This document shows, piece by piece, positions 1 through 692 of a stretch of 64,000 nt of DNA (its first letter is position 1; every line of letters starts with the position of its first letter). Where the stretch lies: assembly GCA_947501265.1 (NCBI GenBank), contig CANMVY010000003.1:1-64000 (forward strand). The letters are read 5' to 3'. Source of the DNA: Bacteroidota bacterium. GTDB lineage: Bacteria; Bacteroidota; Bacteroidia; UBA7662; CANHCV01. The notes under the pieces were generated by a model. It was given only the letters and a program-made list of their open reading frames with translations, ran no database searches and had not been told where the DNA came from. Position numbers and translations under genes: made by a program.

Positions 1-90
1 GGCGCTTTTTTTATGATTATTGGTTGGCTAGATCGTCCCGAAATGCTTCGGGAAGGTCATCGGTTCGACTCCGAACTTCTCCACTACAGA

Positions 91-112
91 AGCGCCTTTT
101 GGCGCTTTTTTT
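91..112 (+). terminator. Rho-independent terminator in repeat unit 1
   Basis: AGCGCC (91-96), loop TTTT, GGCGCT (101-106), followed by a T run to 112. It lies directly after the tRNA-like 3' end, as expected for a terminator that once followed a tRNA gene. Confidence 0.75.
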
Positions 113-190
113 ATGATTATTGGTTGGCTAGATCGTCCCGAAATGCTTCGGGAAGGTCATCGGTTCGACTCCGAACTTCTCCACTACAGA

Positions 191-212
191 AGCGCCTTTT
201 GGCGCTTTTTTT
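191..212 (+). terminator. Rho-independent terminator in repeat unit 2
   Basis: Exact copy of the hairpin at 91-112, one repeat period (100 bp) downstream. This is the last complete terminator of the array before the GIY-YIG leader region. Confidence 0.75.
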
Positions 213-245
213 ATGATTATTGGTTTGTCCTTTTTAAAAGAGTTG

Positions 246-263
246 AAACGTTTATAAACGTTT
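246..263. other. Perfect 18-bp palindrome
   Basis: AAACGTTTATAAACGTTT is identical to its own reverse complement. It lies in the AT-rich stretch between the repeat array and the GIY-YIG leader. A dimeric regulator site is possible, but nothing in the window identifies a binding protein. Confidence 0.45.
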
Positions 264-328
264 AAAAACGGGTAAGTTGCCAAAATAAAACATTTTTGCC
301 TTAAATCAGTAAGTCACCTGGAATTCAA

Positions 329-422: not shown

Positions 423-692
423 ATGGAATGTGCAGTTTATATTTTGTATTCGATTCAAATGGATCAATTCTACGTTGGTTCCAGTTGTAATTTGGAAGAT
501 CGATTGAATCGACACAAAAATCATGGAAGTAAGGCAACGAAAAAGGCGACCGATTGGGAATTGGTTTATCTGGAAAAATTTAGTGATCGAACTTTGGCGG
601 TGAGAAGGGAATTAGAAATAAAGAAAAAGAAAAGTAGAAAATACATTGAGTTATTAATTCAAGGAGAAAAGGATTCAGAGGGCCATCGATGA
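423..692 (+). CDS. GIY-YIG family endonuclease (small, single domain)
   Basis: An 89-residue protein made almost entirely of a GIY-YIG nuclease fold: VYILYS for the GIY strand, then FYVGSS for the YIG strand, then LEDRLNRH with the usual Arg, and a Lys-rich C-terminal helix. Such single-domain proteins (UPF0213/YhbQ-like) are common in Bacteroidota; their cellular role is mostly unknown. I chose ATG 423 because family members start a few residues before YILYS; a TTG at 405 would add six residues. The last codons (EGHR) read through a tRNA-like remnant in the same frame as the EGHR encoded by the upstream repeat. It stands alone, next to tRNA fragments. Confidence 0.85.
   Translation: MECAVYILYSIQMDQFYVGSSCNLEDRLNRHKNHGSKATKKATDWELVYLEKFSDRTLAVRRELEIKKKKSRKYIELLIQGEKDSEGHR

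Follow-up and report, generated by a model that had tools for sequence, protein, structure and literature searches.

Introduction

Integrative elements with tyrosine integrases that insert at the 3' ends of tRNA genes restore the tRNA 3' end upon integration. In fungal mitochondria, mobile ORFs carrying a C-terminal duplication have been described in atp6 of Allomyces and in atp6, atp9, cox2, and nad3 of Glomus (PMC3630166). In T-even phages, SegB and related proteins are free-standing GIY-YIG homing endonucleases; SegB cuts tRNA-containing DNA and triggers tandem amplification of the tRNA together with the nuclease gene through short homology (PMC13096335).

Here, we analyzed a 64,000-nucleotide stretch of Bacteroidota DNA (the window), which starts with a tandem array of tRNA fragments near a small GIY-YIG gene. 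Position 1 of the window is base 1 of contig C3, and the array is broken off there by the contig end. We conclude that the array probably derives from a GIY-YIG homing element of a self-restoring kind, located at tRNA-Ala(GGC), and has lost the nuclease gene.

Structure of the array at the window start

The exact tandem array reported in the initial annotation, with two identical 100-bp units and the start of a further one, was recovered in full (Table 1). The unit contents likewise bear out its description as tRNA 3' parts, each with a hairpin and a terminator: from 5' to 3', a unit comprises the 3' part of the D arm, the hairpin, the variable loop, the T arm, the acceptor 3' strand, and the terminator. 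An ATG directly follows the T run of the terminator, as it does for the GIY-YIG genes of intact elements, and this ATG and the TTGGCTAGATCG in front of the hairpin correspond to the start and end positions, respectively, of the GIY-YIG gene in locus L180. A complete cloverleaf is absent, as ARAGORN called no tRNA in the window and the acceptor 5' strand is missing from the units. Nothing in the window reached the gathering score of an Rfam family, and a permissive Rfam scan of positions 1-800 returned weak matches only.

Table 1. Features of the array, the neighboring tRNA gene, and the GIY-YIG gene (window coordinates unless a contig is given)
Feature	Position	Strand	Remark
Terminator end (GGCGCTTTTTTT) of a preceding repeat or of the intact tRNA gene	1..12	+	In register with 101-112 and 201-212
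3'-type unit 1, 100 bp	13..112	+	Identical to unit 2
18-nt hairpin TCCCGAAATGCTTCGGGA replacing the anticodon arm, unit 1	36..53	+	7-bp perfect stem
3'-type unit 2	113..212	+	Identical to unit 1
Hairpin TCCCGAAATGCTTCGGGA of unit 2	136..153	+	As in unit 1
Opening bases of a further unit (ATGATTATTGG); the array ends there	213..223	+	Window sequence
GIY-YIG nuclease gene, member of the tRNA-linked family; 89 aa from ATG	423..692	+	PF01541 match
Intact tRNA-Ala(GGC)	C4:369-295	-	Between the 5' and 3' units

Every exact match to the hairpin plus GGTC pattern in the genome falls within the array (the count covers the hairpin together with GGTC). Among exact matches, no REP/RAYT-like dispersal of this pattern was found elsewhere in the genome, and a genome-wide repeat of the motif is thus ruled out for this organism. 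The confinement of the matches to the array, together with a congener that has its own array of both unit types, indicates more than a chance feature.

The missing side of the array

In reverse orientation, contig C4 overlaps the start of the window with 271 of 284 columns identical, and the overlap includes the unique flank at window positions 224-280. Because of this overlap and the common unique flank, C4(-) runs into C3(+). Read in this direction, C4 presents three 74-75 bp units of the tRNA 5' part, an intact tRNA-Ala(GGC) gene (no second Ala(GGC) gene was found among the genome's tRNAs), and two 3' units, and C3 continues to the GIY-YIG gene. Each 5' unit consists of the complete tRNA 5' part, a TCCCGAAGGAATTCGGGA hairpin, GGTC..TCGA, and a leader. 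In every repeat, whether of the 5' or the 3' type, the anticodon arm is swapped for a TCCCGA..TCGGGA hairpin. The lack of a 5' tRNA half, which had been remarked upon initially, therefore holds within the window but not for C4, where 5' parts and a complete tRNA are both present.

The two 3' units on C4 (99 and 100 bp) share 92% identity, and their identity to the C3 unit is 93% and 99%. Because these counterparts differ, the perfect identity of the C3 units may be an assembly effect at the contig end, and the recent amplification that had been read from it is not upheld. If both contig ends are one place, the 3' units in the assembly number two. The initial annotation had also considered a complete tRNA gene upstream with the repeats as an assembly artefact; the tRNA gene does exist on C4, while an artefact as the sole cause is ruled out, since C4 and the congener G002 have arrays of their own.

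G002 has four or more 3' units as well as eight 5' units, distributed over two contig ends. The congener G001 has one or more 5' units and lacks a complete 3' unit, and GATTATTGG also follows its tRNA terminator. A GIY-YIG gene adjoins the array or the tRNA in all three congeneric species. The array is the right flank of an intact tRNA-Ala gene that is flanked on both sides by hairpin-scarred partial copies, and not a set of free-standing tRNA tails.

An exact 18-bp palindrome, AAACGTTTATAAACGTTT, is located at window positions 246-263 and has 19 exact places in the genome, compared with 0 for the reversed control. Other copies are found at C4:17-34, which lies within the stretch common to C4 and the window, C12:40846-40863, C3:74788-74805, C3:75061-75078, and further places. 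The palindrome stands upstream of two small GIY-YIG genes of the genome (in the window and on C12), and it could be a site bound by a regulator or a dispersed palindrome. In the gap that separates the array from the GIY-YIG gene, positions 330-388 hold GAAGACTTTAGTTCGAACCCACTCACTGTGAGTGACGAAATGGGGTCTTC, a T-loop-like stretch inside a larger hairpin, which is perhaps the decayed tail of another such element.

The GIY-YIG gene of the window

The GIY-YIG nuclease gene noticed near the array is indeed there (Table 1). Its protein matches the PF01541 profile with an E-value of 7.1e-16 and 58.7 bits (cut-off 22.6), and the presence of the conserved GIY/YIG tyrosines, Arg, and Glu places it in the GIY-YIG superfamily. 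In an alignment of 18 tRNA-linked proteins, Y6, Y17, G19, R27, H31, and E63 are invariant (numbered from the M of MEC). The dN/dS of the gene between the three congeners is 0.05-0.11, indicating that the protein is maintained by purifying selection. In the protein tree described below, the rows nearest to the window protein are mainly linked to tRNA-Ala. No recognizable tRNA tail is present behind the gene, which lies ~200 bp from the array, compared with a typical distance of ~57 bp; because of the missing tail and the wide gap, the gene is tied to the array by position and family rather than as part of an intact element.

GIY-YIG loci linked to tRNA genes across the phylum

A scan for the hairpin plus T-arm pattern in one genome per species (84,980 species) yielded at least 118 stretches. 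Among the matches listed, most were from Bacteroidota (Chryseobacterium, Algoriphagus, Pedobacter, Chitinophaga, and others) and some were from Acidobacteria, Ignavibacteria, Calditrichaceae, and others. The usual order, found in many genera, was an intact tRNA, a GIY-YIG ORF on the same strand, a hairpin with the tRNA 3' part, and a terminator. These loci often stood in tandem at about 330-380 bp, and at several of them the D arm of the tRNA fragment doubles as the coding sequence for the C-terminus of the GIY-YIG protein (e.g. KYIEWLISSAG*).

Because these loci had been selected by their hairpin, a protein-based search was made. A profile of the 18 tRNA-linked GIY-YIG proteins matched 122 of 198 genomes from the phylum of the window, and 89 loci were taken from the matches irrespective of their DNA context, with several genomes giving more than one locus; the sample represents close relatives, since the profile was built from tRNA-linked members. 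Within it, an intact same-strand tRNA gene was found no more than 700 bp from the GIY-YIG gene in 78 of the 89 loci, compared with about 1.3% expected by position. The tRNA lies upstream in 66 of these (median 57 bp) and downstream in 12; several of the 11 loci without an intact tRNA within 700 bp are at contig ends. At 76 of the 78 linked loci, the tRNA fragment matches the neighboring tRNA better than all other isotypes (median score 50 vs 17), and in such fragments a hairpin usually takes the place of one arm. A mirror type, with a scarred 5' half, the GIY-YIG gene, and a complete tRNA, is seen in most of the 12 downstream loci, and this mirror image of the standard element would explain the 5' units on C4. 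These counts, together with the empty sites in relatives described below, strongly support the earlier suspicion of a mobile-element-like unit that targets tRNA 3' ends and is paired with GIY-YIG genes in Bacteroidota.

A tree built from 126 GIY-YIG proteins, in which many forks are unresolved and near copies inflate the isotype contrast, required 41 changes of isotype as opposed to 86.5 with shuffled labels (0 of 200 shuffles as low). In two acidobacterial loci (L104 and L125), the order of intact tRNA, GIY-YIG gene, and scar recurs at tRNA-Val(GAC) and tRNA-Ile(GAT). An IMG/VR contig (L211) carries a GIY-YIG gene and a scarred tail near the viral contig end, ~12.9 kb into the locus, which is possibly a prophage boundary at a tRNA. 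In the open-access literature on GIY-YIG proteins and Bacteroidetes tRNA genes and on single-strand-specific GIY-YIG enzymes, we found no published description of these elements; earlier work may have been missed.

Occupied and empty sites

Insertion at a conserved target, with clean empty sites in relatives, was seen in two independent sets of occupied and empty genomes, both at tRNA-Ala. G190 carries the element at its tRNA-Ala(GGC) gene, whereas G259 and G041, of the same genus, have an empty site there. The native terminator (AAACCCTTGTAAA..) stands directly 3' of the tRNA in the two empty genomes, whereas in G190 it follows the tail instead (scores of 60 and 54, compared with no more than 25 for shuffled sequence), the intact tRNA being followed by another terminator. 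A recoded anticodon arm as a mark of occupied alleles was suggested by this comparison; among 47 tRNA-Ala genes of the genus, both anticodon-arm alleles occur with and without the element.

In the other set, the empty G246 and the occupied G162 align at 80-84% over 2.4 kb, both sides together. The tail of G162 has a tRNA 3' half and a terminator that match those of the empty host G246, while two compensating changes in the T stem and another terminator set its intact tRNA apart. The 60 bases after this intact tRNA are identical to those in the occupied G224 and match the element-free G221 and G248 (score 78, shuffled at most 32). Because the foreign 3' sequence matches that lineage, the unit of G162 was acquired from the G224/G221/G248 lineage or a relative, and since the 3' part and terminator of the complete tRNA derive from another lineage in this pair, the unit moves horizontally. 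Judged from these sequences, the insertion brings one half of a tRNA gene and displaces the resident one, in which one arm is converted into a hairpin, and it moves between lineages. A third comparison, at tRNA-Gly in the genus of G120, gave no usable empty site, since the tRNA gene and its downstream flank are on opposite strands in the relatives.

Hairpin scars by isotype

The part that is replaced varies with the isotype: it is the anticodon arm in Val, Ala, Arg, Pro, and Lys, the T arm in Asp and Gly, and the region between the anticodon and T arms in Asn. TCCCG is the most frequent start of the stem, with TGGCGC prevailing in Pro(CGG) and CTCCGA in Lys. As a bulk statistic, the longest perfect stem beat 95% of shuffles in only 25 of 66 regions, so a clear hairpin is not found in every locus. 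At the tRNA-Ser loci L247, L255, L266, L279, L284, and L299, the scarred 5' parts hold at least two successive perfect hairpins. TCCCGA-type hairpins occur in the D or T arm besides the anticodon arm at L137, L165, L205, L106, and L124.

Proposed mechanism and alternative explanations

The standard element has the form P-[S-terminator-GIY-p-hairpin]-S, with P standing for the 5' part and S for the 3' part of a single tRNA. Because the element brings a new S, P and S together form a complete tRNA gene, and the displaced, hairpin-scarred part of the same tRNA stands behind the nuclease gene. In our model, the GIY-YIG protein would cut element-free tRNA genes at the arm that becomes the hairpin in the scar, recombinational repair from the donor would copy the whole unit with the displaced S serving as downstream homology, and the hairpin would render the scar uncuttable. 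Tandem copies could arise by unequal recombination between the repeated halves. At the window locus, the 74-75 bp 5' units would be mirror-type scars and the 100-bp 3' units standard-type scars that multiplied after loss of the nuclease gene, one GIY-YIG gene presumably persisting just downstream of the array. That the GIY-YIG protein makes the break is suggested by its family, the tree that follows isotype, the purifying selection, and the example of SegB. Both the specificity of the nuclease and the role of the hairpin are what we infer: with a length of about 80-95 aa, the predicted proteins barely exceed the catalytic domain, and sequence-specific cutting is for this reason not obvious. 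The model also expects the restored tRNA to be immune, but the anticodon-arm alleles in the tRNA-Ala set do not follow the presence of the element. Further weak points are the 11 of 89 loci with no intact tRNA nearby and the lack of a tail behind the GIY-YIG gene of the window.

Alternatively, the GIY-YIG protein could act on the TCCCGA-type hairpin itself, single-stranded or cruciform, with the tRNA pieces as a landing place or passengers, a reading modelled on RAYT proteins with REPs and on the IS200/IS605 transposase with its end hairpins. The minimal size of the protein would fit, as would the stems shared by isotypes and arms (TCCCG being the commonest) while the tRNA sequence differs, and the extra hairpins of like kind in D and T arms at some loci. 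We nevertheless consider it unlikely, because the target isotype tracks the GIY-YIG phylogeny, some clades use other stems (those of Pro(CGG) and Lys), the pattern has not spread as a repeat beyond the array in this genome, and the scar always matches the neighboring tRNA.

Very unlikely, in our judgment, is that replication slippage simply duplicated parts of a tRNA gene in tandem, with no element involved and the GIY-YIG gene as a bystander. Partial duplications on either side of one functional gene would leave truncated copies, and the unit number does differ among congeners, but slippage does not explain why the hairpin substitution is alike on both sides, why GIY-YIG genes are linked throughout the phylum with a fragment of the same tRNA, or why foreign 3' halves occur with the native halves behind the nuclease gene. 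It is already disfavoured by the empty-site pairs. Neither unit type can fold as a tRNA, because one acceptor strand is missing in each (the 5' strand in the 3' units and the 3' strand in the 5' units), and no tRNA was called; this makes it highly improbable that the units encode functional tRNA-like small RNAs, acting as decoys or regulators, with the nuclease being secondary. Such a function would account for the terminator of each 3' unit, the well conserved T arm and acceptor 3' strand, and the complete tRNA 5' part retained in the 5' units. However, the 3' units drop to zero in G001, and the conservation is explained by recent copying. Nothing in the present data calls for the tandemly repeated stable RNA suggested in the initial annotation.

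Compared with these alternatives, a homing element that restores its tRNA target remains our preferred explanation. Taken further, it might amount to a natural bacterial cleave-and-rescue system, a proposal that we put forward tentatively and with some reservation: a minimal GIY-YIG nuclease would destroy the element-free essential tRNA gene, the uncuttable half carried by the element would restore the tRNA, and the arm of the displaced copy would be rewritten as a neutral hairpin, the system having reached many isotypes across much of one phylum, as well as several other phyla. The observation made in the initial annotation is real and its direction was guessed correctly, and the wider system of tRNA-restoring GIY-YIG elements is the finding of interest. 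If this holds, a large class of tRNA fragments that lack annotation in Bacteroidota, and of small genes annotated there as 'GIY-YIG nuclease family', would find an explanation. Essential tRNA genes would then be hosts to selfish elements that do without splicing or an integrase, since such elements put back the half that they displace. Culturable Flavobacterium and Chryseobacterium would allow tests of homing into tRNA genes, target immunity, and scar formation, and from the minimal nucleases one could learn how a GIY-YIG catalytic domain of ~80 residues acquires specificity.

Comparison with known systems

The stand-alone GIY-YIG proteins of UPF0213 (1ywl and 1zg2) resemble the proteins described here in size and domain and, within the PDB, are the best sequence matches to them, albeit weak ones (E about 0.01); we know of no tRNA linkage for them. 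Unlike the elements with tyrosine integrases, the present unit has no integrase, is about 350 bp in length, and replaces a part that extends into the anticodon arm. SegB shares the placement of a GIY-YIG nuclease next to tRNA genes but resides in phage genomes and is a larger protein, and the available portion of its description mentions neither a restored tRNA half nor a hairpin-scarred remnant (PMC13096335).

The fungal mitochondrial mobile ORFs are the closest precedent for the gene-end-restoring logic. As here, an endonuclease ORF sits in an essential gene and brings a foreign 3' end that restores it, the native 3' end is displaced behind the ORF, and the foreign end shows horizontal transfer (PMC3630166). 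A foreign end in the restored gene and the native end behind the ORF are what was seen in G162 relative to G246 and G221/G224/G248. In contrast, the fungal elements occupy mitochondrial protein-coding genes and encode LAGLIDADG (atp6) or other endonucleases (PMC3630166), whereas those described here have a minimal GIY-YIG protein, often stand in tandem arrays, show a hairpin instead of one arm in the displaced copy, and include a mirror type in which the 5' half is the one restored. The tRNA-linked element works like a fungal mobile ORF without being a member of that group, its targets being bacterial tRNA genes.
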